Assembly: GCA_026874595.1 (NCBI GenBank)
Contig: CM049314.1
Span: forward strand, 33,736,229 to 33,800,228
Length of the DNA: 64,000 nt
Direction: 5' to 3'
DNA from: Sipunculus nudus
Lineage: Eukaryota; Annelida; Sipuncula; Golfingiida; Sipunculidae
Shown here: one piece after another, positions 30,729 to 60,924 of the stretch
Layout of the letters: each line of letters begins with the position of its first letter
Position numbering within the stretch: position 1 is the first letter of the stretch
Translations under genes and position numbers: made by a program
Notes under the pieces: generated by a model
The model's input: the letters and a program-made list of their open reading frames with translations, nothing else
What the model was told of the DNA's origin: nothing
The model's database searches: none

Positions 30729-30941
30729 TTAAATTTCACACCCCCAGATGCGAAAGTTTGGGAAGAAGGCTCCCTCCACGACAGGAGTCAGGTTTGGGCA
30801 TCCAGCCACGGGAGGCAGCACCGGTTGCCGGAAGTTACTGTGGTCCTGCATGAAGCTCTGTATCTCAAGGCCGCAGGCATGCTGTTCGTAGAAACTGTAC
30901 TCTTGTACTGCTGGTATTCTAGCATTAAACGTAACCTCGCC
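30729..30941 (-). CDS. Gene A exon 7 (C-terminal module, second half)
   Basis: 213 nt including the stop, acceptor ccatatttgcag. It encodes GEVTFNARIPAVQEYSFYEQ, HACGLEIQSFMQDHSNFRQP, PPVAGCPNLTP and a final NFRIWGCEI. The same 213-nt exon exists in gene B (50374-50586) and copy C (60712-60924). Confidence 0.88.
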   Translation of the reverse strand, partial: GEVTFNARIPAVQEYSFYEQHACGLEIQSFMQDHSNFRQPVLPPVAGCPNLTPVVEGAFFPNFRIWGCEI

Positions 30942-33900
30942 CTGCAAATATGGCATGGAACTTTTATACAATACATTCACATTGAATTATGATATTAACT
31001 TGAGTCAATCTAAACAGTTTTACAGCAAGCGACATAGGCCTATGTTTGCAGCACAGCCCGTGGTGTTCAGTCTCTCTCCATGTAGGTAATGATAAGATAA
31101 GATAAGATATGATAAGATAAGATAAGATAAGGTAAGGTAAGAAATGATAAGATAACATTTATTAGCTTTCAGTTCAACATTTGATGTTGATGACAATTCA
31201 TTAAATAAAAATAAATAAATTCCATAAAATAATACATAAAAATAACACAAAATATTGACTGTGCATTTAAAAATAAGTATGTAAAAATGATAAAACAGAT
31301 AATTCTGCAGGTAAAGCATAATTCAAAACATTAAATACATGTATCTAGAGGGTTGCGAGTTCAAAAGTTTAATACTGTATGACAAAAGAGATTTTTTAAA
31401 ACGAGTTGCAAACGAATGTTGCATCTAAGCGTTTAAAAAACTGAACTCTGAATGTAGGGGATGTGTTGTGAAGGCCATTGATTTGGTTTCACAGATTTCC
31501 TGGTGTGAGGCAAGAGAAGTACTAGTTGTTCTACAACTTCTCTTCATGATATTATTTAACTGTTTCTTTAACTTATCAGATATATTTGTAAACCAGCACT
31601 CCAGTGATTAGAGATTAAGAGACTAAAGTTTAGATTCCATATGTACGGAATGCGGTATGCGGAATTGGCATCGACTAAATAAATAAGGCGATGGGCAATG
31701 TGTATCCTGCAAAAAGAAACGCTACTTGTTGCGACTTTTGCCGGTTCTGCATGGTATCCTGGACCGACACATTTAAAATATGCATGTTGCGCTGCCGATA
31801 AATATGAATTCTCTCAACAAGATGCCGCATGCTGCATTCTGTACAAAAGGAAACTTAGCTTAATTAAAATAACAAACAAATAAATACCAAACTCTTCATT
31901 TTCTACGCTCTGTGCTTAGTGTTTCTATGCTGACATCATTAAACAGATTGCAATCAATATTTATGCAAATTGAAGTTTAAAATAGTGAAAGGAATGGCAA
32001 AACCACTCCCAAAACAGAGGTAAGTGTAGGTAACGCCATCTACTTTCAGACCTTATCAACGATTGTATAGAATCCTTTTGAAATAAAATATAAGATCATG
32101 CTGATCCATATCATCTCCAATATTTACAAGATTTTGGCTGACTATTCTTTATATCTCTACAAAATTTGTCCGAAAAGTAATTGGGTAAAGTTGCTCACAG
32201 ACAAACCTACAAATCAAGTAACCAATTTAGGGGGGAAATATGCGACCTCAGGACCGGACAGAGGTTCGATAAATCCAATATTTAGATTTACCTCGATTAA
32301 TGCTTCCGTGACTTCTATACCCACGCTGTACTCCAGAATAAAGGCGGAGCCTGCTGGGAAGAAAGGACACAACCCGTCACCTAGCAACATGTTGATCTGC
32401 TCTATGACGTCACCAGCTCGCTGAAGGAAGGCGTTGTAGTGACGTTCTTGACAGTCCTGCAATAGACGGTCATCGGCCATGAAGAAACCACTGACAGAGA
32501 TCTCCTGAACCGGCGGAACTACGTCATCTGGTACTACAGGTACATATGCAAACACAAACATATCAATATAAATAATGTTTATGGCATTTCTAATTATTAT
32601 TTTATATTATTGCCCCAAAGTTATCTATTTTTGTTTGATTACAATGCATTTTTTTCACTTCTGTTTGGATGATGAATCAATATTGAAACTTTTACATGAA
32701 ACTGCGTTGTGCCATGATCAAGAAAGACGAGAAACTCAGAAATTTTTAATTGCGAGAGAAGGTATTACGTATAAACTTATATATCGGCTATATTACATTA
32801 TATAATATCTAATTATATTACATTTTATTATATTATATTATTTCCGCTATACTATATATGATGTTATATTATAGGATATAAATTTATACTGTATTTTTTT
32901 TACAAATTGACTAGATGTCTGTATTACAGTATGGTCAACGTGTTTGAAAACATCTTCAAACCTGGTGCTGGTGTGGTTGGAATGATAGTAATGACTGGTT
33001 CTTCGGTGGTCACATGGGGAACTCCGGGCGCTGTGGTTACCGGTTGTACCTGTGTTGTTGGTGTAGGCTGGCCAGCAGTGGTCGCCACCGGCGCCTGTGT
33101 AGTTTCTTGAGCAGATGTTTGGGTTGTCGCTACTGGCGCCTGTGTAGTTTCTTGAGCAGACGGATAGGTTGTTGCCACTGGCGCCTGTGTAGTTTCTTGA
33201 GCAGATGGTTGGGTTGTCGCCACTGGCGCTTGAGTAGTTTCTTGAGCAGACGGTTTGGTTGTCGCTACTGGCGCCTGTGTAGTTTCTTGAGCAGACGGTT
33301 GGGTTGTCGCTACTGGCGTCTGTGTAGTTTCTTGAGCAGATGGATGGGTTGTCGCCACTGGCGCCGGAGTAGTTTCTTGGAAAGACGGTTTGGTTGTCTG
33401 CACTAACGCCTGTGTAGTTTCTTGAGCAGACGGATGGGTTGTCGCTACTGGCGCCTGTGTAGTTTCTTGAGCAGACGGTTGGGTTGTCGCCACTTGCGCC
33501 TGAGTAGTTTCTAATGCAGAAGGTTGGGTTGTCGCAACTGGCGCCTGAGTTGTTTCTTGGAAAGACGGTTGGGTTGTCGCCACTGGCGCCTGTGTAGTTT
33601 CTTGAGCTGACGGTTGGGTTGTCGCCACTTGCGCCTGAGTAGTTTCTAATGCAGAAGGTTGGGTTGTCGCCACTGGCGCCTGAGTAGTTTCTTGAGCAGA
33701 CGGTTGAGTGGTCGCCACTTGCGTCTGAGAAGTTTCTTGGGCAGACGGTTGGGTTGTCGCAACTGGTGACCGAGTAGTTTCTTGAGCAGGTGGTTGGGTT
33801 GTCGCAATTGACGCCTGTGTAGTTTCAGATGGTTCGGTAGTAACAACTGGCGGCTGCGTGGTTTCTGTTGGTTTAGTGGTTGTTAAAACTTCCTTCACAA

Positions 33901-36900
33901 CTGAAAAAATCAGTATTTATGGTTTTGGAAAAAAATTTACAACATTTTGCGACCTTGTCCATATTAACAGTTGAATTTACAATTCTGAATGTTGATTACT
34001 AAACCGATTTACAAATGATGGCGACTAAGTAGTGCGTCCGTAATTTTACATTTTATTTACGAAGACATGTTTTTGACCTGCATATTGTTAGATAAAAAAT
34101 ACTTGTTAGAAAAAAAAACACTTTAGGAATAATGTTTCTACACTGTCGACGAAAAGGTCAGACATCAGGTAGCTCTCATCTTGTGGTACAGATGGAAGCC
34201 ACAAGAAATCGATTGCAGATGGCGCCACCGGTCATGAGGACAAAATTGAGGAGTCCAAGATCTATAGATATGCACAATTTCAGGCCAATAATGCAAATCA
34301 ATCCTGAGAAAAGGGCATTTATTTATTTAAAAAAACCGAAGGGTAGATGGCGCCACATCTCTGGCACCCCTGAGGTGTCCACATGCAGCTTTGAGGGGCA
34401 TGACATCCATGAGGTCATCACATGCAGCCTTGAGGAAATGAAGCTGAACTGACCTTATGACCCCTGGCAGACTCAGTGTGCACTAAATAAACTCTTGATC
34501 TGTACCTGGCTGCCCTGAGTAAACTCTTGACCTGTTGCATAATCCGATATAGCTGGCAGTCTGCCAAAGCTATAAATAGACCCAGACTGACCTTTGGCCT
34601 GTTGTCAAACCTGAAACAGTTAGAAGTCTGCCAAGCTATGTATAAATACAGACACAATCTTGGCCTGTTGGTAAATCACACACTGAAAGACCTTGCAAAA
34701 AATGCTTTTTTCAAGCTGACACATGAGACTTTTTATCTAAATGATTAGAATAATAAAAGATGCAGTCCTTTCATTGTTAAAGATCCAATAATTCTGCCAA
34801 AATCATTCAAGTCAACTTGAACAAAGGCCACCTAAGAATTATTTTTGTGCAATGTTACAAATGTTATAATTGAAACAACATTTTTGTTGAAGAAGACTAT
34901 TGCAGCCTTAAATTTGATAAAGACTTACTAATGGTTACAAAAGTAACTTCATCTTTCTTTGACTCAACCAAAAATCAAATAATCCAATCTATTCTTAAAA
35001 ATTGAGAGAACTTATAAAATGCTTGTGAACACTAAAACCATTCAGCTTCAGTTTCATCCTGAAACATTTTTAAGCTGAAAGAGGCAAAAATTACAGGGTT
35101 TTTATCCATAAAATAAACAGGTCGATGAAGGTGGCAACACAAAACCTCAATTTCAAACATGACTCATGGTGCAACATTTGCACAAAACTTAATGATCCTA
35201 GCGCCTGTCGTTTTTTTTAAGACTCTAATGTTAGGGTGCTCGCTTGGCCAAATGATTAATTTCAAATTCCTGTAACTCGGCCAAAACCAATCGAACAAAC
35301 TTGAGAGCGCTTATCCCTGGGGTCGTTTTTTTTTTTTGTGAAATATTGAACAATTTGGCTCAATGATTAAGGAGCAGAGATTTTCAAGATTTTTCCCCGT
35401 AAAATATACAATGATGCAAGTGGCGACAAAGCGACAAGCTGTATCCAACAACATTTGATATGTGACTGATTTTTGTGTAAATTTTGGGGATGCTGCTGTT
35501 CATGAGAAATTATGGGTTAATGTACTGATAACCGAGGATCCCCGTACAAAAAAGGTTGATGCAGGTGGCACTACCAATACCCAAATTTCATATATGACTA
35601 ATGTGACCAACATTGGCAAAAAACCTTGTTGATGATAGCTCCAGCCGTTTCTGAGATGGCAATTTTAGTGTGCTTTTTGGACAGATGACTAGGTTCATCT
35701 TCCTGTAACTCGGCCAAATATCACCTTACTAGGGCCTTTCGAACAAACTTGAGAGGGATTATTTCTGGAATAATTTCTGTGAAATATTGGACAATTTGGC
35801 TGAACAGTTTCGGAGAAGAAGATTTTCAAAGGTTTTCAAGCTTTTCCCCCATAAAATGTAAACTGATGCATGTGGCATCGAAAAAGCTGTATCCTACAAC
35901 ATTTGATATGTGACTGATCTTTGTATAAAATTTGGGGATGCTAGCTCCAGCTGTTCCTGAGAAATTATGGGTTATTGTACTGATAACCGATGACCTCCGT
36001 ACAAAAAATGTCAATGCAGGTAGCGCCCCCAATAACTAAATTTCAGATATGACTCATTTGACCAACATTGGCATAAAAATTGGTGATGATAGCTCCAGTA
36101 TTTTCTGAGATTGAAATTTTAGTATGCTTTTTTGGACAGATGACTAGGTTCATCTTCCTGTAACTCGGCCAAAAAATCACCGAACATGAACCATTCGAAC
36201 AAACTTGAGAGGGATTATTCCTGGAATAATTTCTGTGAAATATTGGACAATTTGGCTGAATAGTTTCGAGGAAGAAGATTTTTCCCCTATAAAATATAAA
36301 AAAAAATGCAGTTAGTCAAAAAATAAGCAAAATCCGATCGAGTTTTTTTAGATGACTAATATTTTGCATAAAATTTGATGATGTCGTTTTTGAGAAAGTA
36401 TGGGTTAACGTACAGATGACGGACAACGCCTCGCCATCACATAAGCTCACAGGTTCGCTAATAAAGCAAAACTGAACTGATAGTGTTAAAGAATAATTAT
36501 AATATTGTTCCTTATAATGTCCCTTTATGTATTGTGTGGATTTCAACATCACGCAGGTATCACCTCCAAAACATTTTGAATGGTGTGCTACACATGACCA
36601 AGCTAATGTATGAGCCCTCACACATCACGTCAGCAAGAGGGTCTGCAAAAGACACCATGCCGATTTCAGTTCTGCGCGATGGGAGGGTGAGCCTGCTGCA
36701 AGGACTGTACACCAGCACTACCAGAACAGTTCCCTGAACCCGATTTTGAGCATTAAAAAACTAAGCTTTGGTTCCGTCAGCTTGTCTCTGAGGATCCCCA
36801 ATATAAGGCCAGGCCATAAAACATCGGATGTGTCATTGCTAAATATCCCAGTGTAATTTCAGAGATCTTAGAGCGAACACATGTCATTTTCCAATTCCAC

Positions 36901-38231
36901 CTTTCCCTTAACCCTTCGGTGCTCCAGGGCCCAGTTAACAGGCCAGGATGAACAGGGCCAGGATATATATAGGCCTACTGAGTGACATGTGAACAAAGAT
37001 GGATTTGCTTTGGATGCAGTCTCTTCGTTATCATTTTAACATTCAAGTTATATATTTGTTTTGCTTTGTTACCGCCTACACCTGATGACAGAAACTAAAC
37101 GAATTGTTATATGAAGCACAATGTGGATCGGACGAACATCCGTAGCCACCAAAGGTTACTAATACGTTAAATATATCTAAGAGAACATTTTAATCATCAT
37201 CCCCCACATGCACTTTGGTAGGATTCTAAGCTCCGCATGATCTGCGTAATACCCATAATATCTGGCATTCCATTTTATTTGGACATACTTAAGTCACGGT
37301 AAGTTAAAATGCATAAATTCCCAGTTTAAATACGTGTATATCAATTGTAGGTATGGGGATACTACACAAAGCAATCTCGCCACTTCTTATGTCATGGCGG
37401 TTATAAGCAGTACGGCCCATGTCTTCTTGGACCTAAATCAGAAGCGGATCCAGGGGGTCCGAACCCCCCCCCCCTTTTTTTTCATCAGAAACAACGTTTT
37501 TTTAAGGGCTTCAGACAAAATTTTGCGGCCTGGACCCCCCTTATCCAGACCTGGGGACCTTTTTTAGGGTTTTCATAGTCCACCTGGGTTGGACCCCCCC
37601 CCCCTTTTCCTAGATCCTGGATCTGCCCCTGTAAATACTAGGGCTGTGTATCGGTCCGCCTCTTTCGGTACAATACGTATTGCGATACAGTCAATTCGAT
37701 ACCGATACGTATTGACGATACGTTTAATTTTTCTTTGTATATCATTTCTAGATAAAAGTTCTGTTTCTTGTATTTTTATATGTTTTATTTTATTTTAACA
37801 TACCACGTATTTAGTATGCTATGCTCTTAAGCAGCTTAAGCTTTATGTTAAGTAAATAAACAGACCAGTTGATTTTAATTATCAAATTCTATCTGATCAA
37901 GACTAACAAAAAAGCCTTTTTCATCCTCCCCCCCCCCCCCCCCTTTATATGCACAAACACTGTTTCATTGCATTCGGTGGGGAGGTTCATAGGCTGTATT
38001 TTATATGTCATGTAATTACACTGTTTCTTTCTGTGAATATGAATCCCATAAGTCACTCTCATGTTTGTACAGGATTTGTCTCCAGGCTTTAACCATTTAT
38101 TTTACATCTATTGTCGAACGAGTAACCTTTGACCGGCTGTGTAAATAAAAAACGTTAGAGATAAAATGATTTATCATAAGCGAATAAGTTCCCTGCTCAG
38201 GTCACAGAATTGAAACATAAATATATATATA

Positions 38232-38287
<56 letters not shown>

Positions 38288-41200: not shown

Positions 41201-43524
41201 GGATAATAGGAGAACAGAGACTGGTGCAGACTAAATTTCTTTAAAGGGGTCAATTCACCTATCTGACCTTTTTGATTTAGGTTGTTTTTGCTTTGTCGAG
41301 CTGCTACAGGTTGCTGTGGTCATTTACCCAGCCCTGTGCACTTCTGAAGCATAGTTCTGAGAGCCAATAGACGTGATGCCACCAAGCCAAGCAGGAAGAG
41401 ACCGCTACCGTTTTACCCGCACCGGTGACTTCACAGAAAAGCCACAGCAATCACATCCACAAAGGCAAAAGCAGCATACATTCCCTCCACCGATCCCATC
41501 AGCGAAGACCTAGCCATGAACTCGAACTGTGAAAGGACAGAGCGTTGAGACGAGAGCCATTTTATACTTGCAGTTTCGGCCATGTAGACAGTTTTATCAA
41601 GTTTTTCGTCATAAGCCACCTATCTGATCTTTAAAACTAAAGGTAATCCCTTGGAGCTTTTATCAAAATAGGCCAGACAACCTGAATATCACCGCACACA
41701 GGCTTTTTGTTTTGTTTATATTAACGTGTTTATAATATGTAGGGACCCACCAAAATAACAAAAAATAATTCACCAAGGGCATCTGGCAGCAAATCAGATA
41801 AGCCACAGCTTTGCAAATGGCGTTTTGCAACAAGTGACATTTCTACCTCCGGATATAGGCAACCTACCACCTTAGGTTACATGATATTCCTCTTTGTCAA
41901 TATTGCTGTGTTTACCAACAGATTGTTGATAAACAAGCTCACACATCATTCAGGAAGGCCTCATAAGATTTTTTCACAACCAGAATTACCCAAATATCAT
42001 TTAATATATACAGAGGAAGCCAGACATCACAAATATTTTGTCAAGGGGTAGGTGATTCGGCATTTTTTAAGGTTTTGTGTTTTTGCTCTTATAATCTGAC
42101 CAAACAAGGGGCGCCCATCGGTTTTTGGCAATAATTTGGACATGCTGATATTTCTGTCCATTATGTTACGATCACAGAAAATGATGTGCTTATAGGCTAT
42201 AGAGAATGAAAGATTTAAGTCAAACCTGTTAAGTGTATACTTTGCAACATTCCAAACGTTTCCTCAAGAAGTGACAGTCCAGGACGCTGTGAATGTTTTT
42301 TATCAAAAGAATCCTTGGCCCTATTACCTTAGTAAGTATGCTGTAAGAAGAATCGATTGTTTTCTCTTATTTAAACTAAATGTGTCACTATTTTTTTCCC
42401 ACTGTATGGTGGTGTTTTTCTTTTAAATAACTGCCTGAGTGCCTTATTTTAAATAAACTGACTTTATGTATATTATGTAAATTAATGTTAAATTATTCAA
42501 GTTAAAAACGCCAAAAACTTATGGTCACCCCTTGATGGGACGGACTATAGACACGTTGTAACTTATTTGACCTGACCTGTACAGTGACCGCTTCCTGTCC
42601 CGTGGTGATGTACAACTCACAGACACCACCAATAGCTCCCTCACGGTTCCTAGGAAACAGCACTGTGTAGGTCTGTCCATAACCGCTTACTGGACCTGGT
42701 CAAAGGTCAAAAGTTATGTTGGACATATTAAAATTACTTTTCCAAAACCACGACCAGTTGACATTAAGTATTTTTTTTTCACATTTAGGCTAATATGATA
42801 ATATGAACTTAGCTAACACACTAAAACATGTGTAAACGTCGGTTAAGCAGAATTATCTCGATGAATTATTTAAAAAAATAATAGATCTTGAAGGTAGAAT
42901 TAAATATTCATGAGGTGAATTATCAGTTGATACTTGTTATTTTAACATGTGGTAAAACTTACCAGCCTCCAAGAAAAGGTACCATACTGAAAAAAGACAT
43001 AACTATTGTAGAGTTTATGCAATGCCATGTAATGTATTTGTTTAACAAACATAAGACGCTCGCCCAGTTACAGATTAGTTCTTCAATGACTGAGTCCTGC
43101 TGAAGTCATACTAAACTCTCGTTTGGATAGCAAGCACAGTTGTTTTTAAATGTGCAACTAGGATTCCTTAAAATAAAGTGTGTTATCAGTATACAAGAGG
43201 CACACGGTATTGATTTAGATACTGAAATATTTAGGTGATTATCAATTTATTGAATGGTCAGTTCAATAGTATAATTCAGAATGTACATGTATTTTTTTTT
43301 AAATATGTCGAGGGTGCCTTCTAAAACGTGTTGAAGTATTTATTCATGTACAACATCTGTACAAACCAATACCTTGCTTATGTACATTTATTGACATAGG
43401 CTACTTGGGTAAATGAATTTTTTTGGTATATGAGCCTGTGTGTACGGGCACAGGTGCGCGCATATGTGTGTGTGTGTGTGTAACCATACTTACTTATGAT
43501 AGGCAGGGCGTTGGCTGCTGACAT
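30729..43524 (-). CDS. Gene A: secreted IgGFc-binding-domain/mucin-like protein (whole gene span)
   Basis: Seven exons: 43524-43494, 42986-42963, 42695-42577, 40556-39461, 33900-32962, 32533-32292 and 30941-30729. They sum to 2664 nt (887 aa from the first ATG, plus stop). Order: hydrophobic signal peptide; IgGFc-binding N-terminal domain as in FCGBP (about residues 35-425); Thr/Pro-rich repeats of 15 residues (about 425-738); then a Cys-containing C-terminal module of about 150 residues. It is probably secreted, with an O-glycosylated stalk. Function is unknown. FCGBP relatives are mucus proteins, and mollusc members are often suspected of immune roles. The first ATG is at the start of a spliced exon, so a further 5' exon may exist. 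Gene B, 7 kb upstream on the same strand, has the same exon plan. Confidence 0.8.
31089..31155. repeat. (GATAA)n pentanucleotide array
   Basis: About a dozen units of gataa with a few gatat/ggtaa variants. It lies in the last intron of gene A and is dense in GATA-factor-like motifs, which may be coincidental. Confidence 0.9.
32292..32533 (-). CDS. Gene A exon 6 (C-terminal module, first half)
   Basis: 242 nt, acceptor tacctgtag, donor GAG|GTAAAT. It encodes PDDVVPPVQEISVSGFF, DCQERHYNAFLQRAGDVIEQ, INMLLGDGLCPFFPAGSAF and a beta-rich end. It aligns well with gene B exon 6 (DCRQRHQDAFLQRASSVVEQ, GMCQFFPQGAAYIFQY). I recognise no named domain. Confidence 0.85.
32962..33900 (-). CDS. Gene A exon 5 (Thr/Pro mucin-like repeats)
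   Basis: 939 nt, acceptor gattttttcag, donor CCAG|GTTTGA. About 18 tandem 45-bp units encode 15-residue repeats of the type TTQPSAQETTQAPVA, with variants (ALETTQAQV, SFQETTPAP). It is dense in Thr and Pro, so probably O-glycosylated and extended. It starts and ends in phase 1, so loss or gain of the whole exon would keep the frame. Confidence 0.9.
35080..36420. repeat. Three degenerate tandem units of about 430-460 bp
   Basis: The phrase ttcctgtaactcggccaaa recurs near 35268, 35698 and 36157. Each is followed by tcgaacaaacttgagaggga, gtgaaatattggacaatttg and acatttgatatgtgactgat. The units are clearly diverged. The right end has cgcctcgccatcacataagc; 54830-54860 has a similar phrase, gccgcatcgccatggcataa. 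Confidence 0.65.
37439..37632 (+). mobile_element. C-rich MITE-like repeat
   Basis: The ends are near-inverted: CAGAAGCGGATCCAGG on the left and, reversed, CAGGGGCAGATCCAGG on the right. The interior is poly-C plus tctggacccccctt-like sequence. A partial inverted copy is at 44522-44651. The next element (37639-38651) inserted directly at its right edge. Confidence 0.5.
37639..38651. mobile_element. hAT-type non-autonomous element with perfect 8-bp target duplication
   Basis: It begins TAGGGCTGTGTATCG and ends, reversed, TAGGGCTGTATCAATA. The subterminal regions are rich in ATCGATAC-like motifs on both sides. The direct repeat GTAAATAC at 37631-37638 and 38652-38659 flanks it exactly. An 8-bp duplication and the AGGGCTGT terminus fit hAT elements. 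The 1013-bp unit has no transposase and contains an AT microsatellite (38221-38284). Confidence 0.8.
39461..40556 (-). CDS. Gene A exon 4 (IgGFc-binding domain)
   Basis: 1096 nt, acceptor tttcattttcacag, donor G|GTAAGT. It carries the main IgGFc-binding N-terminal domain: DDIVVHGINQ, DGFLAVPLTSDATEFVVGSY, SNKPIAVFSGNECGRVPSG, AVPPLSQLGRKFIVPPLAGR, GYVVRIIAARGNT, SEGCLVVQYNKG, MVVTPVDRYANRFSWMTARR and a final FTYGHAGNAEEAYGYPAG. It has exactly the same length as the gene B exon at 53177-54272. The conserved Cys pairs fit an extracellular disulphide fold. Confidence 0.92.
41245..42066 (-). mobile_element. TTAA-flanked MITE, copy 2 (inverted and enlarged)
   Basis: Reverse-complement homologue of 1053-1521, with TTAA at 41241-41244 and 42067-42070. 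It is about 350 bp longer: the terminal phrase CACCTATCTGA occurs near 41258 and again near 41619, with extra unique sequence between. This indicates a partial duplication or a nested insert. It lies in the intron between exons 3 and 4 of gene A. Confidence 0.5.
42577..42695 (-). CDS. Gene A exon 3 (start of IgGFc-binding domain)
   Basis: 119 nt, acceptor tttgaccag, donor CAG|GTCAGG. It encodes SGYGQTYTVLFPRNREGAIG and VCELYITTGQEAVTVQ. The F-x-x-N ... E-L-Y-I-T-T pattern opens IgGFc-binding domains. The gene B exon at 55287-55399 is homologous (NGVCEFLLTTP). Confidence 0.8.
42963..42986 (-). CDS. Gene A microexon 2 (24 nt)
   Basis: Acceptor gtcttttttcag, donor CTG|GTAAGT, phase 1 to 1. It adds the hydrophobic residues IWYLFLEAG across its junctions and so completes the signal peptide (LPIIIWYLFLEAG). 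Gene B has a 24-nt microexon in the same place and phase. Confidence 0.65.
43494..43524 (-). CDS. Gene A exon 1 (31 nt, signal peptide start)
   Basis: Acceptor-like ttacag, donor ATAA|GTAAGT, encoding MSAANALPII plus one base. It is supported by an exon of the same length and phase in gene B (56515-56545) that also contains Leu-Pro-Ile. The ATG may be the start, or it may be internal if an upstream exon exists. Gene B has GCC at this place, which favours an upstream exon at least in B. Confidence 0.6.
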
Positions 43525-43549
43525 CTGTAATATATGACATGAAAGACTC

Positions 43550-46500: not shown

Positions 46501-47510
46501 CAGTATGTCACCCAGTCGGGCCTTTGCAAGGTGAAAAGTGCCAGTGCCTCCAGTCGCACTATTTGTCCTCCAAAAATACCTCCGACGGTGCCAAGGAGTG
46601 ACTCCCTACTCTTGCACTGAAGATGCTAAGCAATATTAGCTTGTCAATGCACTTGCTTGATTGAACATCTAATGTTCTTTATCTGGTAAGACTTTGTACA
46701 TGGGTCACGGTGCAGGACTGATTTCTGCACTGTTTCGAAAGCGGCTACGGTTACCAACTGACCATTAACAGATTTGCTTGTATGAGCACAAGTTGAACCT
46801 TCAAAGTGAAGCCATTTCAAGCTTCGCGTCACTCATCAATGCACGGCCAGCACAAGATGATGCCAATCCGATCTCTTTTCTTCAGTTGCAACTCTCCGTC
46901 AATGGTAACCGGGACATTCACCCAGAGCTGTATTTTGCAAATTCTATGGCAATAAAGGTTGTCCTTTCTGATCGGTCTTCTTAAGAATTGTCCTCAAGCG
47001 TTCGCACATTCAAGGTGCAGATTATGAGAGGTGCCACCTTTCCTGTTCAGCATTGCCACAAGGGGTGACAGGAATGCGTCCAATATAGAAGTGTATTGTG
47101 TATAATGCTTGCACCCTCTCGCTTTCAGCTGAACCTGTTTTCTGGCTTTATTAAAAAAAAAGGGGACCAAGTGCTCAATTCCCCAGAGACAGTTCAATGT
47201 TCACGCACCAGGGTTCCTTTAGTGGTTCCATCTGGCGAAGCATGGTAACTGTGTCCCTGCACCTAAAATTGAATCTACATGGGACCTCGGAGGATTTCTT
47301 GCTTTCAGAGATGTGACATCCTGGTCCATCAGCGTGTGTATATGGAATTGATTCAGCTATGCCCCAGCTATGGGCCTAATGTGATTTAGGATTTTTCTAT
47401 TTAGGATTTTACTAACTGGACCCCAGCGGAATACATGGACAGCACCCACTAGGGCTCAACTAAGGAGATATGTCATCCTAATTGCAAAAAGATTTTCAAA
47501 TATTATAATA

Positions 47511-47546
<36 letters not shown>

Positions 47547-50230: not shown

Positions 50231-50338
50231 AAATGAACAAAGAATGTCTTTTACTTTGCTGGGAGCCTAGATTTCTTAAAATGTGTCAAATGTTAAAAAA
50301 AGAAAGATTCAATAGAACATTTTCGACAAATACAAAGA

Positions 50339-50344
50339 TTTATT
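50339..50344 (-). terminator. Poly(A) signal of gene B
   Basis: AATAAA on the minus strand, 29 nt after the stop of gene B. The 3' flank around it is homologous to that of copy C, where the same hexamer lies at 60678-60683. Confidence 0.65.
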
Positions 50345-50373
50345 GTCGCGGATCTTTCTCCATAAAAGAGTCC

Positions 50374-50586
50374 CTAAAGCTCACATTGCCACCTGCGGAA
50401 GTTCTCCTCAAACCATCCAGGAACATCAGGAGTGAGATCCGGACAGCCCTCAACAGGGGGAAACACAGGTTGCTCGTAGTTGCTGTGATCTTGCATGAAC
50501 ATCTGGATCTGGACTCCACAGTTGTGGTTGTCGTAATAACTATGCTCCGGTACAGCGGGCACCTCAATAGTAAAGTGAACCTCGCC
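50374..50586 (-). CDS. Gene B exon 7 (C-terminal module, second half)
   Basis: 213 nt including the stop, acceptor tttcattttgtag. It encodes GEVHFTIEVPAVPEHSYYDN, HNCGVQIQMFMQDHSNYEQP, VFPPVEGCPDLTP and FEENFRRWQCEL. It is more similar to copy C than to gene A. Confidence 0.88.
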   Translation of the reverse strand, partial: GEVHFTIEVPAVPEHSYYDNHNCGVQIQMFMQDHSNYEQPVFPPVEGCPDLTPDVPGWFEENFRRWQCEL

Positions 50587-53500
50587 CTACAAAATGAAAT
50601 TATAAACACTAACACAGTCAAGCATTCCATTTACACAGCTGGTTCACGTGAACATATTATTCACAAGTTCGATAGATACTGGACCGCGTAACTCTATTTA
50701 TTACAAAAAACAACAACAACAACAAAACTTCGATGTGTAAACATGTACTATTTAAGGTGCCCACGATTTTGCGATGATTGCGATCAGTGTATTGGTTCAA
50801 GCTCTTACTCGACCGATAATGATGCCTTACAAATTAAACTAGAGGTATCAATTAATATCCTTGCCTGATTGTCAGCAGGCCTATAGACGACTAAGTACAC
50901 CGTATACTGGAAAATATAGGCCGCTCCCTGCGGGAAGAATTGGCACATGCCTTCACCCAATAAGATGTTTATCTGTTCGACGACACTGGATGCTCGCTGA
51001 AGGAAGGCGTCTTGGTGACGTTGCCTGCAGTCAGGGGAGATAAAGGAAGCAGCAGAAAAGTATCCCACAACGGAAATGAGCTGAACTGGAGGGATAACAT
51101 CATCAGGGCCTGTGGAATACAAAAACTCAGTTTTCCAGGTCACAGGAAAATCTATACTCGGCGATTATGTGTTTCTTTTAATGTTAGGGGTCTAAGGTTA
51201 ATCATAGAGTTTATATATTGTTTTTTAAATTTTCAACGATAGTTTTTTTACAGAAATGCATTTTCAAGGGACCACATATTAAATGCAGAATTGCTGCAAT
51301 CTGTATTTTAAAGAAGGGATTTCATACCTGGCGCTGGTGTCGACAGAGGGATGGCTGTGGTTTCGGGTGGTTGTGTGGTTACGACTGGTGGTTGTGTGGT
51401 TTCCAAGACAGGTGGTTGTGTGGTTTCAACGACAGGTGGTTGTGTGGTTACCACTGGCGGCTGTGTGGTTTCCACGACAGGTGGTTGTGTGGTAACCCCG
51501 GGTTGTTGTGTGGTTTCAACGACAGGTGGTTGTGTGGTTATCACTGGCGGCTGTGTGGTTCCAACGACAGGTGGTTGTGTTGTTACGACTGGCGGCTGAG
51601 TGGTTTCTACAACAGGTGGCTGTGTGGTTTCAACGACAGGTGGTTGTGTGGTTACCCCTGGCTGTTGTGTGGTTTCCACGACAGGTGGTTGTGTGGTTAC
51701 CCCTGGCTGTTGTGTGGTTTCAACGACAGGTGGTTGTGTGGTTACCACTGGCGGCTGTGTGGATCCAACGACAGGTGGTTGTGTTGTTACGAATGGCGGC
51801 TGAGTGGTTTCTACGACAGGTGGCTGTGTGGTTTCAACGACAGGTGGTTGTGTGGTTACCCCTGGCTGTTGTGTGGTTTCCACGACAGGTGGTTGTGTGG
51901 TTACCCCTGGCTGTTGTGTGGTTTCAACGACAGGTGGTTGTGTGGTTACCCCTGGCTGTTGTGTGGTTTCAACTTCAGGTGGTTGTGTGGTTACCACTGG
52001 CGGCTGTGTGGTTCCAACGACAGGTGGTTGTGTTGTTACGACTGGCGGCTGAGTAGTTTCTACGACAGGTGGCTGTGTGGTTTCAACGACAGGTGATTGT
52101 GTGGTTTCCACTGGTGGATGTGTGGTTTCCACGACAGGTGGTTGTGTGGTTACCCCTGGCTGTTGTGTGCTTTCAAGGACAGGTGTTTGTGTGGTAACCC
52201 CTGGCTGTTGTGTGGTTTCAACGACAGGTGGTTGTGTGGTTACCACTGGTGGCTGTGTGGTTCCAACGACAGGTGGTTGTGTTGTTACGACTGGCGGCTG
52301 AGTGGTTTCTACGACAGGTGGCTGTGTGGTTTCAACGATAGGTGGTTGTGTGGTTTCCACTGGTGGATGTGTGGTTTCCACGACAGCTGGTTGTGTGGTT
52401 AACCCTTGCTGTTGTGTGGTTTCAACGACAGGTGGTTGTGTGGTTACCACTTGCGGCTGTGTGGTTCCAACGACAGGTGGCTGTGTTGTTACGACTGGCG
52501 GCTGAGTGGTTTCAACGACAGGTGGTTGTGTGGTTTCCACGACAGGTGGCTGTGTGGTTTCAACGTCAGGTGGTTGTGTGGTTTCAACTGGTGGATGTGT
52601 AGTTTCAACGATAGGTTGTGTGGTTATCACTGGCGGCTGTGTGGTTCCAACGGCAGGTGGTTTTGTGGTTACCAATGGTGGTTGTGTGGTTTCAACTACA
52701 GGTGGTTGTGTGGTATCTAAGATAGGTGGCTCTGTGGTCACCACCGGCGCCTCTGAAGTTGGTACTGTGGTTGGAGGTTTTGTTGTTGTTGTGGTAGTTG
52801 TTGTTGTCAACTCAGACCTAGGAACTGAAATGGGAATTCACGTAGTGTATTCCTTACAATCTATAATGAAGTTCAATGTCCAAAGAAAGTTATTACCAAT
52901 ACTGTTTGGGGACCTCATTTTGTCTAAGTATATGCTTATATACAAATTCTTTCATATATAATTGGTACATTGACGTTGAAAAATATTATATTGAAAGTGA
53001 AAAACTATATCGCCGTTTAGTGACATAGCATTTCTTAACCGAACATCTTTAAGAAACAAAATTAAATATATGTAAATTCTGGAAAGGGCTGAATAATTCA
53101 GAACTACAACTTACAACTAATCTCACTATTCATTTGCTGTAGCTAAAATGCTATTTAATTGTTTCTGTATACTAACAGTCGGTTCCTGCAGGGAATGCGT
53201 AGGCCTCGTCTGTTGCAAAGGAGTGTCCATACGTGAAGACTGCGATTTGGACGTCGAGGTTTACATGGTGAACGGTATGCTGCCCGTCATCAACACCAAG
53301 AGAGGTGGCGCTGTAATCGGACCCCTCAGCGACTGTCCAGTCACTCATTGTTAATGTTTCTCCGTCAAGTCTTACTCCTTCCGTTTCATCGGTGGGAGCT
53401 ACAATGCTTACGTGATGATCGTATTCAAGCGTGCCTTCCCTTGATGGAGTAATCCACGTGAATCGATTTGCGTAATGCTCAACAGGTGTCACTACCATCA

Positions 53501-56500
53501 TAAAAGGTCCGGTAAACATGCCATCAACCCCTGAACCTTTGTTGTATTGCACAACCAGGCACTCATGCGAGCACGTGATTCTGACAGCCTCTTCTTCGTT
53601 TGGAACGTTCATTTGAGTGAATTGTCCAGCGTTCAGCGTTTGAAAGCCATACGAACCCGCATCGACGAAAGTGTTATCCCTAGCGGCAACCACGCGTACT
53701 ATATACCCACTATCAAACCTACCGTCGATCGGTGGAACTATGAACTGCTTCCCAAGCTGCGCTACTGGTGGAACAGCGCTTACTAAATGGTTACAATTTT
53801 CTTGGTTGTGAGGTACTTGTGCACATTCATGCCCAGAAAACATAACAATCGGTTTGTCGGATGTAACCATGGTACCCGTGTAATCATATTCGTTAGATTG
53901 ACGTCCATACGTCTCAAACAGGTTCAGTGTGACTACTTCAGTTGACTGATTTGGATACCTTATGGTAACTTGAGTTTCGTTTGATGACGCCGCCAGGAAA
54001 AATTGAGAACTGTAAGAGAAGAATGGCCTGAAGGAGGATACGACGAACTCAGTGGCGTCCCCTGTCGGTGGCACGGCCAAAAATCCATCAGCTGAACCCA
54101 CGTTTTGGTTTATACCCTGAACGACGAAGATCTGGTCTGAGGTCAGAAGAAGGGCCTTTCTCTCTGTCTGTCCAGATAGACTTGTACGGTAACTATCGCA
54201 GTCCACCCTGAGTCTTCGGCCATTTTGTGCTGTTACGGGGTATTGCTCATCCAGGCCTAGGTCAGACCGTACCTTGGAAACATTGAAATGAACATGCAAA
54301 ACCAAAAGTATGATTTTTATGCCTTTAATGTTAGTTTCCATATTAATTTTTATGTATATATTGCATATAAGAGATATAAGAGGGAATTTTTTATTGTAAT
54401 GTTATTGCGACCTTAACTAGATTTTATGTATCTCTGTAATTGGAATAGCATATAATATAATTATTCCTATAGTGCTTGTAGGGGAAGCCTCATTCCCTAA
54501 CTTTAGTAAACCATTTCTAGTTTTACAACTACAATTTTTCACGATATTTTTATAAATACCAATAAATACCTATAACTCCACGGCAACGGTTGTATTAGTG
54601 ATAGTAATATATTAAGATATATTGTTGTTGTATTTCCAAACAATATTAATTAATACATTAAAATACCTAAAGTAGAAGAAATATTTTCAGAGGATTTGAA
54701 ATGCGTTAACATACATTTGTGTTCTTACCAACTTCAAAATTCTGTGTAATAAAATCGGTCAAGAAATAAAGGGGAGGCAGCATTTTGATAACTGCGGAAG
54801 GAAACCGGACGCGCGCTTGGCAGATGAACTGATGCCGCATCGCCATGGCATAAGCTCATCGGACCTACTGCCGGATGAGCCAAACGTGTATCTTTTCGGA
54901 AAATTAGACACCAACAAATTATTTTACTTTGCAACACATGTTTGGTACTGCACTAAAGGCAAAAACTGTCCAAAGTCAATTTAAACATGCACATTGGAAA
55001 AAACAACAAACTCTTATAACACTCGCTCGGGATATGTACGCACTTTTGTCCGAACTGCTATTTTAAAAGTAACTTTTTTTCAAATGGGAGGACATGCCTC
55101 CTGTCTCCACAGGAAACAAGGCCCGTGTTATAAAATAATTCGCATAATTACCATTTTACTTGTAAAACAATAACGGTCGTTCTTTTTAAATGTTGGTTCC
55201 TTAACTGATAAAGGAAGCCCACAAAATTCTGAAACATATTACGAATAATTCTGTGTATATATATATATATATATTGTATGCAATACCCGAATGGTGGCGG
55301 ATATTGCCGGAGTTGTCAACAGGAACTCACAGACTCCATTATCCAATCCAAGGGAAGTAAATATGACTACGTGGTCCAGTCCTTGCGCCTCGCAGTGTCC
55401 TGTCAATGGTAAGACCTTAGTCTCACAATTGTATGGACACTATTCATTGTATACAACTGATAAACCACCTTAAAAGGCAGTAGACTTGCACTAATATTTT
55501 TTTATATATCTGGGGAAATGTTAATTTTATTCTTACAAGGCCGAATTCTCGTTTTCTCAAGTTGCAATTCCCGTTTTAATTAACATTGATATAACCTTCA
55601 TTTTCAATTAGATCGGTAAGGTTCTAAAGTCCATGAAATTATTGTTTTAGTTACAGTAGCTTAATAACTACAGTGCAAGTTTCTTTTTCCAATATTATTG
55701 GAAGTCGCTGGGCCTTCGGATTTATTGAGTCCTATAATACAATATATAATGAAGGATGTTCAAGAAATAACAACTGAAACGTCCATCAGGGTAAGATAAA
55801 CTATTTATTTTAATGTTTTCGTTCCCTTTTGCAAGAAAAAAGATTGGTATTTAAGATGAGATAAGGCAATTTCATTTAGCTTATATAATTATGTAGTGCA
55901 GGTCATTGTCGTGCTCTTAGCAATATTGCATAAAGGTCAGAAAGGACAGTGATAAAAACCTGATACTTCATAATAGCCTAAAACTCTAAGAATTTAAAGG
56001 GAAATCTTAATCCAGTTATTTTGAAATTTCTATGGGTCAATTCCTTTGTTCGTTCCTTGGCTCTCCTTGAAGAAAAGTATATTTTGTAATTAAAATTTGG
56101 GGAAAACTATATGATAATTAACCCACCTGACAGAAGGATCAAATAGAGAGCTGAAAACACAAGAAGAATATGCATTAATAAACAATCATTTCTGTCCCGA
56201 GTAAGCTAAGCTTTGAGACCACAAAAGCACCCTGAATAACCAAGGAGCTGTATGTTACAATGAAAATTAACATTACATGAGAGTTTTTTTATGGGCAATA
56301 AATAATAACATTACGTCAAAGTATCTTGATGCGTAGTGAATAATAACACTACATGAAGTATTTTGATGCAAAGGTGTATGTATGGTACTGCTTAGAAAGT
56401 CAGAATACACAAATCAAATTCTGCCTTAAACCGCATATACTGATTATTGATTATCGTAACTTACTCATAAAAACATATTGTGTACATGTTTACATATTGA

Positions 56501-56545
56501 ATATTCAAACCTACCGATTGGCAGCCACAGTAATTTACAGGCGGC
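50374..56545 (-). CDS. Gene B: secreted IgGFc-binding-domain/mucin-like protein (5' end incomplete)
   Basis: Seven exons: 56545-56515, 56150-56127, 55399-55287, 54272-53177, 52824-51328, 51109-50865 and 50586-50374. They sum to 3219 nt (1072 aa plus stop). The plan, exon sizes and phases match gene A: signal peptide KLLWLPIALYLILLSG, IgGFc-binding N-terminal domain, a much longer Thr/Pro stalk (499 codons versus 313), then the same Cys-containing C-terminal module. No ATG opens the 31-nt exon, so a start exon must lie upstream, or transcription starts in the intron at an in-frame ATG (see exon 2). Intron 6 begins with GC, not GT. Probably an extracellular, heavily glycosylated adhesive protein; function is inferred from the family only. 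Confidence 0.8.
50865..51109 (-). CDS. Gene B exon 6 (C-terminal module, first half)
   Basis: 245 nt, acceptor gtattccacag. It encodes PDDVIPPVQLISVVGYF, DCRQRHQDAFLQRASSVVEQ, INILLGEGMCQFFPQGAAYI and ends PADNQ. The donor is CAG|GCAAGG (a GC-AG intron). Only this junction keeps the frame into exon 7 and aligns with gene A. Confidence 0.83.
51328..52824 (-). CDS. Gene B exon 5 (long Thr/Pro mucin-like repeat)
   Basis: 1497 nt, acceptor cccatttcag, donor CCAG|GTATGA. A Thr run opens it. Then 7- and 8-residue units alternate (TTQPPVV, TTQPPVVE, TTQPPVVG, TTQQPGV), arranged in higher-order blocks of about 204 and 249 bp marked by the TTQPPVVG unit. Repeats differ from those of gene A. All Thr/Pro/Gln/Val/Glu, so probably an extended O-glycosylated stalk. 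Long open frames on the opposite strand are a by-product of the repeats. Confidence 0.9.
53177..54272 (-). CDS. Gene B exon 4 (IgGFc-binding domain)
   Basis: 1096 nt, acceptor caatgtttccaag, donor T|GTTAGT. Motifs: SDQIFVVQGINQ, DGFLAVPPTGDATEFVVSSF, SDKPIVMFSGHECAQVP, AVPPVAQLGKQFIVPPIDGR, GYIVRVVAARDNT, SHECLVVQYNKG, MMVVTPVEHYANRFTWITPS, VSIVAPTDETEGVRLDG and FTYGHSFATDEAYAFPAG. The Met 23 codons upstream of the acceptor makes an open frame, but it reads intron, because the length match with gene A fixes the acceptor. Confidence 0.92.
55287..55399 (-). CDS. Gene B exon 3 (start of IgGFc-binding domain)
   Basis: 113 nt, acceptor accattgacag, donor CGG|GTATTG. It encodes HCEAQGLDHVVIFTSLGLDN, GVCEFLLTTPAISATIR. 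It aligns with gene A exon 3 (GVCELYITTGQEAVTVQ), has identical phases (1 to 0), and was found only through this homology. Confidence 0.78.
56127..56150 (-). CDS. Gene B microexon 2 (24 nt)
   Basis: Acceptor cttgtgttttcag, donor CAG|GTGGGT, phase 1 to 1. Joined to exon 1 it reads LPIALYLILLSG. Reading upstream into the intron in the same frame gives an ATG and MHILLVFSALYLILLSG, also a good signal peptide. An alternative first exon starting there is therefore possible. Confidence 0.65.
56515..56545 (-). CDS. Gene B exon 1 of those found (31 nt)
   Basis: Acceptor tatttcttccag, donor ATCG|GTAGGT. It encodes AACKLLWLPI plus one base. Same length, phase and Leu-Pro-Ile ending as the 31-nt exon of gene A. 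Hydrophobic after Lys, as in a signal peptide. Confidence 0.6.
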
Positions 56546-57445
56546 CTGGAAGAAATACAGGATAAAGGTCTATACACATGTTTTGACATCTATGCTTTAA
56601 AGAAAACTTAAATGATGCAAAAGAGGTTATATGTATTACGTCGATATAAATAAGCCTTTATCAGGATGCAACATTATTATTTTGGTTTAAACTGCATAAT
56701 ATTGAAATCCATTTGATATATTAAGAAAATACTGAGGGTTATGTTAATTGACAGACTAAGAGGTTGCTTTGTATCCAATAATGGATAAGCTGAGCCCAAT
56801 ATTACTTATATCATATTTAAACCAAGTTTTAGTAATCATGAGGGAACCAAAACTGCCTGCAGCCTACTAAGTATTCTAGCATTTGGTATAAGATCTGCTC
56901 GTGTTTCAGTTGGTCGTGTACAAACAACTGAAACATCAGCAACCATTATGTGTCCCTATGGTCCTTTACGTGAATAAATAAAAAAAAGCAAGCATGGCAA
57001 TATTATGCTATTATGTGTTATGCTATTATGTAAGTATGCTTAATGTTGTACTTTAAAGGAAAAGAGCCAAGAAATGTGACAGTTATAATGTACAGGGATA
57101 CCTTTGTTTTCTACTTAGCAAAATTCTGCTCTGCTCTGGCATAGTAGCATTGTTTTAAACTGTCAACATTAACAGCTCAGAAGAGTCTACATACGATATG
57201 ATACGAGTCAAAAGCCAGTTATAGAAAATTTGCAAGCAAAGAGTATTTAATCAAAATCTAGCAGAAGCAAGTTAATACTAGAACCTAAATTTGAGGAAGG
57301 TATCCTTTACATTGCATGTGCGTTATGGGGTGTTCCAATAATGCTTTTGATTATTAATTATAAAAAAGAGAGAAATATTCTAATAATAATATAATGCTTT
57401 GGTCTTGATTCTTAGTGTTGTTACGGAACCTAATATAAACAGATC

Positions 57446-58131
57446 ACGTATGCGTGATGAATAACAAATTTTGTTTCTGTAACACTAGGCAGCGTGAAAT
57501 GTCTAGGGGAATGAATAAAGAAGTCAGTGTTTTTTGTTAACAAATAACCATAATTTATTCTTAAAACAACCCTAACATTGCGATACACTAAATCAATACA
57601 ATTATACAGTAAAACAGCGGTATAACAACACATCAATAAAATCACACAGTAAAATACACAAAGTGCACAGTACCTGGATAGCACCACCTTCAAAATGAAA
57701 AGTTCTTTAAATGTATACTCACAAAGAATGACAGTCCAGTGTAAAGCTCTTGTAACAATCAAAAACGTAAACTTAAGTCCAAGCAAGACTCGTCATAAAA
57801 TTCAAGAGAAAGTCTGAATAAAATCTATAATTGCAGCACTCGTTGGATAAGGTCTCAGAAACTGACACACGCTTCTGCGTCCGTTGGAAATCTTTTCTGC
57901 TGCTCTCTGGGCTCTAAAACACAGCCCCTTTATATACTCTTCACCCCAAGCCGAGAATTTTCCACTTCTCAAACAGTCTAAAAGATCTTGTACAACATAG
58001 TAAACACGCGTTACTAGAATCATCTAGAAAAACATCGCCGTGCCTCTACACACCATGATGTACACGTGATCTCCACCAGGCGAGAAAGCCAGACACGAGT
58101 GCCACAACACGAGTTACGCCCGTGTCACACA
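57446..58131 (-). mobile_element. Possible solo LTR or promoter-like segment
   Basis: On the minus strand it begins TGTGACACGGGCGTAACTCG. It has a TATA box (GAGTATATAAAGGGGC) near 57935 and AATAAA-type signals further on, and can be read to end in TGTTACA. That is the order expected of an LTR. No target duplication or internal retroelement was found. It could also be a real promoter; it lies 1-1.6 kb upstream of the first gene B exon found. Confidence 0.35.
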
Positions 58132-59619
58132 ATAAAAAGAGCACCTGTAACAGTGTATAGAAGGTTAATTGAATATGTATGGTTTTGCAAATGTTGGCTG
58201 TAAGGGGGGCCAGATATGGATAATGTACTTTTGTAAAACTTCTAGGACGAGGGATACATCACAAATATTAAATTATTTTATAATTATTATATTAAAGTTA
58301 TCGATAGCAATAATATTCTAGGAAGTAAAAGGAACTGTAAAATAGTCAGGAAGGCAGATATATAACATGAGTTCTCTGTTCTGTTCAGCTTACCATGTAT
58401 GCATGTATGAAGAGTTTAGGGATATGTTTCCTCCAAATATAAAGATATTTCTTCCAAATAAGTAAGGACATATCAAGACTGTGTAATACAAAATTATATG
58501 TCTCAATCCAATGTGTGTGAATACTTGGTCCAAGTAATTGAATAAGATAAAAATTAAATTTTCAACGAAAAAAGAAGTTTTACATAACACTTTAAAGTAG
58601 TTCTTCAGGTCATACTTATAATCGGTAAAAAATACCCTGGAGATGGCTTAATTTAACACATTAAGGACATTATGAACATTGAATATTTTATTGTACCTGT
58701 TTTCATCTGCCGCAGAGTATTTAAGAGCATGTTAATTTAAGTTCAGGTTTACTGAGAGAAGAGAAATCGAATAGGATCTTATTCATATTTAAACGTTACG
58801 GTTGTCAGTCATACTGTGCGGACTATCTAGAATCATCTGTTTAATTACTATAAAAAATCGCATGGATATGATGTTGGTGGAATGCTGTTATATATCTGAC
58901 ATATATATTACTTAGGAAAGGGATCAAATGGGATCCCTGGGAACCTGTTATGTTGTATAATGACCGTTTTGCTAATTACAACAGGCCCCATATTTACATC
59001 CTAACTTCCACATTACAACCTATGCGTTTCCCACAGGTTTAACATAAAAAGCAATTAGCAGGTGACTGTGCTGTGAGACATGCTTTTATTTTGCACAACT
59101 GACGTGCCTCGAAAACAATACGCATCCACAGAAAGTATATTGACCATTTGTCTAATTCCTAGGCCTATATAACCTCATATTCCACCTATTGTCTATTTGA
59201 TTGTTTGTCTTTTGCAAAATCATACTTAGACATGGCTGTACAAATTATAAATCACAGTGTAATTTGATACATGAAATACACAGACTTTAAAAGCATAAAC
59301 CAGAATTTATGAATATAATTGACTGTAGGATCTTACCATTTTCAGCGGTGTGCTGGCCAAAACAGAAGGGAGTGGGATTTTGAACAGATGCCTCGACAGT
59401 AAAGATAACAGTGTGACAAATATATATATATATATATATATATTACGGCCTGACTATTAATATACCACGAAAAGCTTTGAGCCGTAAAAAACTCCGACAT
59501 GTACTGAATAAAGTATATTTAGTACATATAGAGGTATATATACAAACTCTTGGTCACTTCCCACCCGTTGGTGTGTCTGTTAGCTGTAGCCGGAAATCAG
59601 TTGACAATTTTCTCTTCAT

Positions 59620-60155
59620 CTAGTTCATAGTTCTGATGATTGCCTCATTGTTAAATTTGCAGATGGCACAACAGTTTTTGGGCTCATCCGGGGAAATAAC
59701 GAAAGTTTTTACCGCAGGAAATAACAACTTTAACTTCGTGGTGCTCTGAAAATAATCTGGAGTTAAATGTAAAGAAAACCAAGGAGATGACAATTGATTT
59801 TAGACGGAAGAAAACTGAAATATTACCCTTAGTAATTGACGGCTCCGGGATTGAAATCGTTGACTCTTTTAAAATTTTAGGAATTTTTATTTCTTCTGAT
59901 TTGAAGTGGGCCGAAAATGTTAATTATTGTGTAAAGGAGGCGCAACAACGTTTATTCTTTCCAAGGAACCTAAAAGATTTCGGGCTCAGTCAATCGATTG
60001 TATTAAAGTTTTATCGGGCGGTAATTCAGGGTGTTCTGACGTTGTCAGTCACTGTATGGGGAGGCAGTATCACTGTTGAGGAAAGGAACCGTCTTTCGAG
60101 GGTATTTTTGCTGGGTGGGCACGGAAAAACAAAAGCTAGTCATATGATTTGTTAA
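59620..60155 (+). pseudogene. LINE reverse transcriptase fragment
   Basis: Reads CLIVKFADGTTVFGLI, then after a frameshift TTLTSWCSENNLELNVKKTK, EMTIDFRRK, FKILGIFISSDLKWAENVN and LKFYRAVIQGVLTLSVTVWG. This is the C-terminal half of a reverse transcriptase of the CR1/L2/Rex1 kind. The catalytic F-A-D-D box reads F-A-D-G (59656-59667), and the frame breaks near 59710. Neither the 5' half nor an endonuclease domain is present. Confidence 0.72.
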
Positions 60156-60677
60156 ATTCCTTGTAAAGAATCATAAAATAGTAGACAGGGTGGCCAGGTA
60201 AAGAAAAGTCTCTTCACGAATGAGCGAGAGAAAAATTTGCTTTGAGGAAGATGCATCCATTTGAAAACCCCAACGTCTTTTTAACGTGCTCCCCAAAAAA
60301 TACCATTAGACGGACAATCCCGCTGTGTAACTAACGTATAACCAGGGTGCTTCAAGACTCGCGGTCACGGTCCTGGTCATATTTTCTGATCAGATAACGC
60401 TATGTTGGAACTCAAGAGATTTTTTTCGGTGCGCTGGTATGTATACCTATGGAAGGCTTAGATCAGGTTTCTTTCTGTCAGCAGTTTTAACTGGCGGTTG
60501 TATTTTGATCACCCGTTTCTGGGGACATAATGCGCATTAGGGCAAGTCTTAAGCACACTAAGTGGACGTTAAGGAGGGGCACTGTGGTCCATTGCACTAA
60601 TGATGGTGAGAAGAACGGGCTGAAAACCTGCCAAGAACACCAACTCTAGATACCAACACTTTCACAGAATACAAAGG

Positions 60678-60683
60678 TTTATT
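60678..60683 (-). terminator. Poly(A) signal of copy C
   Basis: AATAAA 29 nt after the stop codon of the copy C terminal exon, as in gene B. Confidence 0.55.
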
Positions 60684-60711
60684 GCATCTGACCTTCAATC
60701 CAAAAGCGTCA

Positions 60712-60924
60712 CTAAACCTCGCATTGCCACCTGCGGAAGTTCTCCTCAAACCAACCCGGAACGGCTGGAGTAAGATCGGGACAGCCCGCAACAGGGGGAA
60801 ACACAGGTTGCTCGTAGTTGCTGTGTTCTTGCATGAACGCCTGGATCTCGACTCCACAGTTGTGATTGTCGTCATAATTATGCTCCGGTACAGCGGGAAC
60901 CTCAATTGTGAAGTGAACCTCGCC
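60712..60924 (-). CDS. Copy C: terminal exon of a third family member
   Basis: 213 nt, acceptor tttctttttgtag, intact to TAG. It encodes GEVHFTIEVPAVPEHNYDDN, HNCGVEIQAFMQEHSNYEQP, VFPPVAGCPDLTP and FEENFRRWQCEV. Close to gene B exon 7, including the 3' flank. No other exon of the family appears in the next 3 kb. The rest of gene C may lie beyond the window, or this may be a stranded duplicate. Confidence 0.75.
   Translation of the reverse strand, partial: GEVHFTIEVPAVPEHNYDDNHNCGVEIQAFMQEHSNYEQPVFPPVAGCPDLTPAVPGWFEENFRRWQCEV

Follow-up and report, generated by a model that had tools for sequence, protein, structure and literature searches.

A tandem gene family joining IgGFc-binding heads, Thr/Pro-rich stalks and five-cysteine tails, and its possible place in mucus or adhesion

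Introduction

Gel-forming mucins carry a repeat stalk between cysteine-bearing ends. A second described arrangement is that of FCGBP, a secreted, mucin-associated protein in which an IgGFc_binding domain (PF17517) stands at the N-terminus and is followed by VWD supradomains. In the frog-glue protein PRIT, as set out in the available part of its description (PMC11237159), IgGFc domains are combined with disordered repeats that are predicted to be O-glycosylated, VWD has been lost and the protein is bound by a galectin. Elsewhere the name has been applied more loosely. In the portions of the literature available to us, limpet, snail, abalone and clam proteins that are called IgGFc-binding are listed with other domains or bear the name by annotation, and PF17517 is listed in a mussel expression table (PMC11817969, in part). 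The oyster genes CGI_10010553 to 10010557, annotated as IgGFc-binding (zonadhesin-like), are among six genes so annotated that were selected at settlement (PMC6337334, in part), and a clam gene named FCGBP went down on challenge with LPS or peptidoglycan in the available table rows (PMC7430831).

Here we analyse a row of genes in a window of 64,000 nucleotides (C9:33736229-33800228 of a genome assembled into 153 contigs, 1.43 Gb in all; positions beyond the window are given as window numbering carried on). Its plan is closer to that of PRIT than to that of the VWD-bearing FCGBP. With PRIT, as far as the available description goes, it shares a leader, one or more IgGFc domains, disordered repeats predicted from their composition to be prone to O-glycosylation, and no VWD in the exons scanned, and also repeated heads if the modules called G, F and E below form one gene. 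PRIT is there described as having many heads alternating with short repeats, whereas here the heads are followed by one long stalk and a five-cysteine tail; the likeness drawn here is one of plan. With FCGBP the genes share the N-terminal IgGFc_binding domain, but Pfam scans of the first two genes, A and B, which covered exons 4-7 (6 and 7 joined, 5 by itself), found no VWD. With gel-forming mucins they share a Thr/Pro-rich repeat stalk and cysteine-bearing ends, whereas the present stalks are shorter and Pfam gave neither a VWD nor a cystine-knot match. Bacterial PF17517 proteins (Bacteroidota, Chlorobiota) likewise have the domain directly behind a hydrophobic N-terminus, but in one uninterrupted frame that continues into other C-terminal regions. 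We recognised no description of a head-stalk-tail plan in the available parts of the open-licence literature searched.

Results

Genes A and B

A first-pass annotation had proposed two genes of seven exons each, with a fully conserved plan, followed by a third terminal exon. Every exon length that it gave could be confirmed, on the minus strand throughout and in agreeing phases, and the exons of gene A are as follows.

43494..43524, minus strand, 31-nt exon with the ATG (ag/31 nt/gtaagt), leader part 1 (MSAANALPII)
42963..42986, minus strand, 24-nt exon, rest of the leader (IWYLFLEAG), parallel to B and C in position and length
42577..42695, minus strand, exon 3, 119 nt, first head segment
39461..40556, minus strand, exon 4, 1096 nt, IgGFc_binding head (PF17517, E 3.1e-47)
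32962..33900, minus strand, exon 5, 939 nt, Thr/Pro-rich stalk with 15-aa repeats
32292..32533, minus strand, exon 6, 242 nt, first half of the tail
30729..30941, minus strand, exon 7, 213 nt including the stop, second half of the tail; AATAAA starts 51 nt past the stop

Gene B lies upstream and has one exon more.

59337..59436, minus strand, conserved block within the 5' exon, with the start codon at its end (ATG/gtaag), 77% identical to its C counterpart over 106 nt
56515..56545, minus strand, 31-nt leader exon without ATG (ag/31 nt/gtaggt), conserved in C
56127..56150, minus strand, 24-nt leader exon, with its counterpart in C at 71746-71723
55287..55399, minus strand, exon 3, 113 nt
53177..54272, minus strand, exon 4, 1096 nt, IgGFc_binding head with an AAG acceptor (PF17517, E 4.1e-51)
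51328..52824, minus strand, exon 5, 1497 nt, Thr/Pro-rich stalk
50865..51109, minus strand, exon 6, 245 nt, with a GC donor that is also present in C
50374..50586, minus strand, exon 7, 213 nt including the stop; AATAAA starts 30 nt past the stop

Splicing of A yields an uninterrupted frame of 887 aa, and the exons of B from the 24-nt exon to exon 7 splice together without a stop. Splice sites in both genes are GT-AG except for the GC donor (gcaagg) of B exon 6, and intron 4 measures 5560 bp in A and 352 bp in B. Exon 3 of B was the best of 16 phase-compatible minus-strand candidates between B exon 4 and the terminal exon of the third gene when scored against A exon 3 (42, with the next candidate at 20; none of 2000 shuffles reached 42). 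Exon 3 was missed in both A and B by a profile built from eight bacterial N-termini, so that this exon rests on the similarity of the copies and on phase. The leader of A (31+24 nt), taken alone, is less certain: among 100 simulations of the upstream sequence, 7% gave as many such exon pairs under a strict donor rule and 21% under a loose one.

Comparison of the copies showed constraint on the protein. Exon 4 is 45% identical between A and B, and synonymous change exceeded nonsynonymous change between these genes in exons 4, 6 and 7 (Fisher p 2e-32, 4e-9 and 2e-10), with no such excess in exon 3 alone (ratio 0.88). In the closest pair, B and the third gene, C, the ratios were 0.083 for exon 3, 0.333 for exon 4, 0.194 for exon 6 and 0.165 for exon 7 (Fisher p 2e-4 for the last), and purifying selection is evident in all four exons tested.

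Gene C and the start codon

The third 213-nt terminal exon that had been announced is present, and it ends a complete gene, since exons 3-6 of that gene were found past the window. With no exon 6 between 60925 and 64000 this exon could have been an orphan; the genome search, which found the rest of C, ruled this out.

72166-72136, minus strand, 31-nt leader exon without ATG (ag/31 nt/gtaggt)
71746-71723, minus strand, 24-nt leader exon
69421-69303, minus strand, exon 3
67076-65984, minus strand, exon 4
65581-64802, minus strand, exon 5
64266-64022, minus strand, exon 6 with a GC donor, starting 22 nt past the window
60712..60924, minus strand, exon 7, 213 nt including the stop; AATAAA 29 nt past the stop

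Aligning B with C revealed two conserved blocks upstream of both genes, namely the 31-nt exon and the block with ATG/gtaag. Because the latter places the ATG in an extra 5' exon, B and C have eight exons, of which the first codes for the start codon only; the seven-exon plan therefore stands in its lengths and phases for A and B but not in its exon number for B and C. Together, the start codon and the 31-nt and 24-nt exons encode the leader MAACKLLWLPIALYLILLSG for B and, for C, MAACKWFWLPVASYLLVLSG. An ATG-starting 31-nt exon of B at 56589-56559 was dropped after C had revealed the conserved exon and the ATG exon upstream of it. For A no counterpart of this upstream exon was found; its own 31-nt exon starts with ATG. 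Leader-like N-termini are thus present in A, B and C, in line with the proposal that the family is secreted. An in-frame ATG at 54341, just 5' of B exon 4, opens a further hydrophobic leader (2.76 over 9 residues) and may be an alternative start of B, but its use would skip the conserved exon 3.

Extent and phase of the cluster

The row extends past the window and comprises genes A, B, C and D and a fifth gene, probably G-F-E. A genome-wide PF17517 search placed seven IgGFc modules in about 67 kb, which agrees with the local expansion that had been suggested. The exons of D are the following.

82052-81931, exon 3
81233-80144, exon 4, whose acceptor is AAG or an AG further on
79472-79074, exon 5
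78632-78388, exon 6
77594-77343, exon 7

Over A to E, exon 4 measures 1096, 1096, 1093, 1090 and 1105 nt and exon 7 measures 213, 213, 213, 252 and 216 nt, the latter being constant in A-C only. The plan is hence fully conserved in phase, whereas lengths are not strictly equal. All module boundaries are in phase 1 (1-1 for head and stalk alike), which allows either module to be duplicated with the frame kept, and the copies appear to differ chiefly in how many heads they have and how long the stalk is. We hold the gene structure of the family to be very nearly certain: it is a real gene family, larger than the window showed and built from duplicable phase-1 modules, and as such it offers a clean case of exon phase explaining possible changes in head number and stalk length.

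Beyond D lie E exons 3-7, then exons 3-4 of F and exons 3-4 of G, with no stalk or tail adjoining F or G. Heads can succeed one another in frame because phase 1 is found both at the start of exon 3 and at the end of exon 4, and heads E, F and G form one clade (support 100/99 in a tree of 15 rows). No 31-nt leader candidate was found in the gap between G exon 4 and F exon 3 (536 bp) or in that between F exon 4 and E exon 3 (2455 bp); 24-nt candidates were present in the second gap only, as two copies of one weak sequence. Judged from this arrangement, G-F-E is probably a single gene in which three heads precede one stalk, made of 14-residue repeats, and a single tail, next to one head each in A-D. 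Against a single gene stand the non-consensus donor of E exon 3 (gttgat) and the hydrophobic start of E exon 5, whose acceptor is maybe misplaced. Leader exons of D and of G-F-E were looked for and none were established, which for G also counts against a single gene. A sixth gene, H, has tail exons 6-8 kb beyond a PF17517 match (C9:1297074) and on the strand of that match, and its head was seen in part only.

Head, stalk and tail

The presence of an IgGFc-binding domain was borne out by the PF17517 HMM search, in which A scored 161.7 and B 174.4 bits against a cut-off of 25.6 and all seven modules of the cluster exceeded the cut-off. Genome-wide there were 59 matches from 68 candidates, a piecewise count that in some cases enters fragments of a single split domain separately, and none of 14 control genomes gave a match. 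Ecotin and DUF2118 also appeared in the Pfam scans, below cut-off. Among 72,556 plasmid records a single one, from Bernardetia (NZ_CP147021.1), matched. A scan of bacterial genomes that used only A and B as queries returned 57 pattern matches, among them no relative, and one with the Bernardetia protein gave seven loci from 81 pattern matches, four of which were scanned with Pfam and all four proved to be PF17517. With 59 matches in one genome and the domain present in bacteria, "IgGFc-binding" is a poor functional label and gives little indication of what these proteins do. An AlphaFold2 model of B exon 4, made with two sequences, was beta-rich at a mean pLDDT of 55.5, which is too weak to rely on.

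Some further observations concern the head. The Bernardetia plasmid has its PF17517-like stretch in a long open frame (L001 970-3885) with no gene in the plasmid table, a table known to be incomplete. Two more IgGFc clusters lie at C10:27.349-27.398 Mb (eight matches) and C6:33.947-33.953 Mb (three matches); tblastn found no tail exons near either. Ser/Thr-rich frames occur close to the C10 cluster, and a Pfam scan of four ORFs close to the heads of these two clusters gave one Ig-like match, at C6, below cut-off.

The predicted mucin stalk has its counterpart in Thr/Pro-rich repeats in exon 5 of A and B. These two stalks contain 27-28% Thr and those of C, D and E 29-39% Ser+Thr, all with zero cysteine, and stalk length ranges from 132 to 498 residues. 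Acidic residues prevail throughout (Asp+Glu against Lys+Arg in A-E: 22/5, 37/3, 19/3, 18/2 and 55/5). In A, 16 of 19 pieces are 15-residue units with the consensus ETTQAPVATTQPSAQ, and in B 21 of 38 pieces are such units with the consensus ETTQPPVVTTQPPVV; across 17 units of A and 25 of B the third codon positions are the most variable. The period is 15 in C and 14 in E, and the D stalk is short and non-periodic.

The small cysteine module that had been proposed for the C-terminus corresponds to a tail of ~150 residues over exons 6-7, with five cysteines invariant in all six tails (A, B, C, D, E and H). D has a sixth cysteine, located in an extension, so that an odd number is not universal. 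The tail had no match in Pfam or, by phmmer, in the PDB, where a profile search returned one unconvincing match (E 0.58). Exon 6 was found at six places in the genome, those of the same six genes, each ~7 kb or less from a PF17517 match, and exon 7 gave nine matches, three of them weak. To judge by these searches, the five-cysteine tail could be a new family, which in this genome was detected only close to IgGFc heads. The three weak matches to exon 7 (C9:33848510, plus strand; C9:33849446, minus strand; C17:49541569, plus strand; E 3e-6 to 7e-5) have no listed exon 6 match beside them and are possible distant relatives of the tail. In A and B the C-terminus showed no hydrophobic stretch resembling a membrane anchor.

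Proposed function and alternatives

From their leader-like N-termini, the products of A, B and C are predicted to be secreted, and a mucus, adhesive or immune use of the family can be envisaged. On the sequence features described above, we lean, by a narrow preference, towards secreted, mucin-like glycoproteins, the products of a tandem family, that would form a mucus or adhesive component; we give the reading as a mucus or adhesive network roughly an even chance. The protein would be exported through the hydrophobic leader seen in A, B and C, and the stalk, once O-glycosylated, would become a stiff, hydrated and negatively charged rod. A beta-rich head might bind glycans or other secreted glycoproteins, one of the conserved tail cysteines, being odd in number, could stay unpaired and form a disulphide with another chain, and the product would be a component of a cross-linked layer, slime or glue, with the head apparently copied to three in the fifth gene. 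A more specific version, which we put forward tentatively and consider possible rather than probable, is a VWD-free covalent mucus or glue network: the five-cysteine tail would join mucin-like chains by disulphide, head number and stalk length would be tuned by duplication of phase-1 modules, and the three-headed member would parallel frog glue. A role of the tail in joining chains is directly testable, and the row of genes provides a concrete case for the evolution of slime or glue proteins in which the IgGFc head is set apart from the VWD machinery usually discussed alongside it.

We think it rather improbable, though the strongest of the alternatives, that the genes are a diversified secreted set for immune recognition, with heads that bind microbes, stalks that project them and duplication adding variety. 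The tandem expansion fits such a set, as does the strong response of the clam FCGBP-named gene to LPS and peptidoglycan, but in the available part of that study the clam gene bears its name by annotation only, with no domains displayed, and the heads tested here are under purifying, not diversifying, selection. Less likely still is a structural matrix or permanent adhesive, as in shell or larval cement, with the stalk as a spacer rather than a gel-former. Proteins named IgGFc-binding do occur in shell-matrix lists (PMC4023409, PMC6003135), and the run of oyster genes selected at the settlement stage points the same way; in the parts of these sources available, however, chitin-binding domains accompany the shell proteins in the lists and VWD and EGF domains are mentioned for oyster, none of which was found in the exons scanned here. 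That the copies are decaying or unexpressed and the exon plan a relic is highly implausible, since several copies combine open frames with splice sites and AATAAA signals and show purifying selection, and since internal stops occur in none of the seven cluster matches against 9 of 59 genome-wide.

Other features of the window

Scans of the whole window for tRNA genes and with Rfam gave no match. Three Arg/Gly-rich open frames on the minus strand (1910-2263, 10221-10544 and 11812-12138), which had no Pfam match, are possibly a second local gene family. A 2.4-kb direct repeat, containing 146-bp units, occupies 12828-15265 and 15480-17917, its two copies being 97% identical and almost head to tail. 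Between B and C, a remnant on the plus strand (59703-60155) resembles the end of a reverse transcriptase (ALKBH8_N, 1.2e-6; RVT_1, 0.049, below cut-off). Within the last intron of C, a tandem unit of 331 bp is present in 3.4 copies at 61167-62272.
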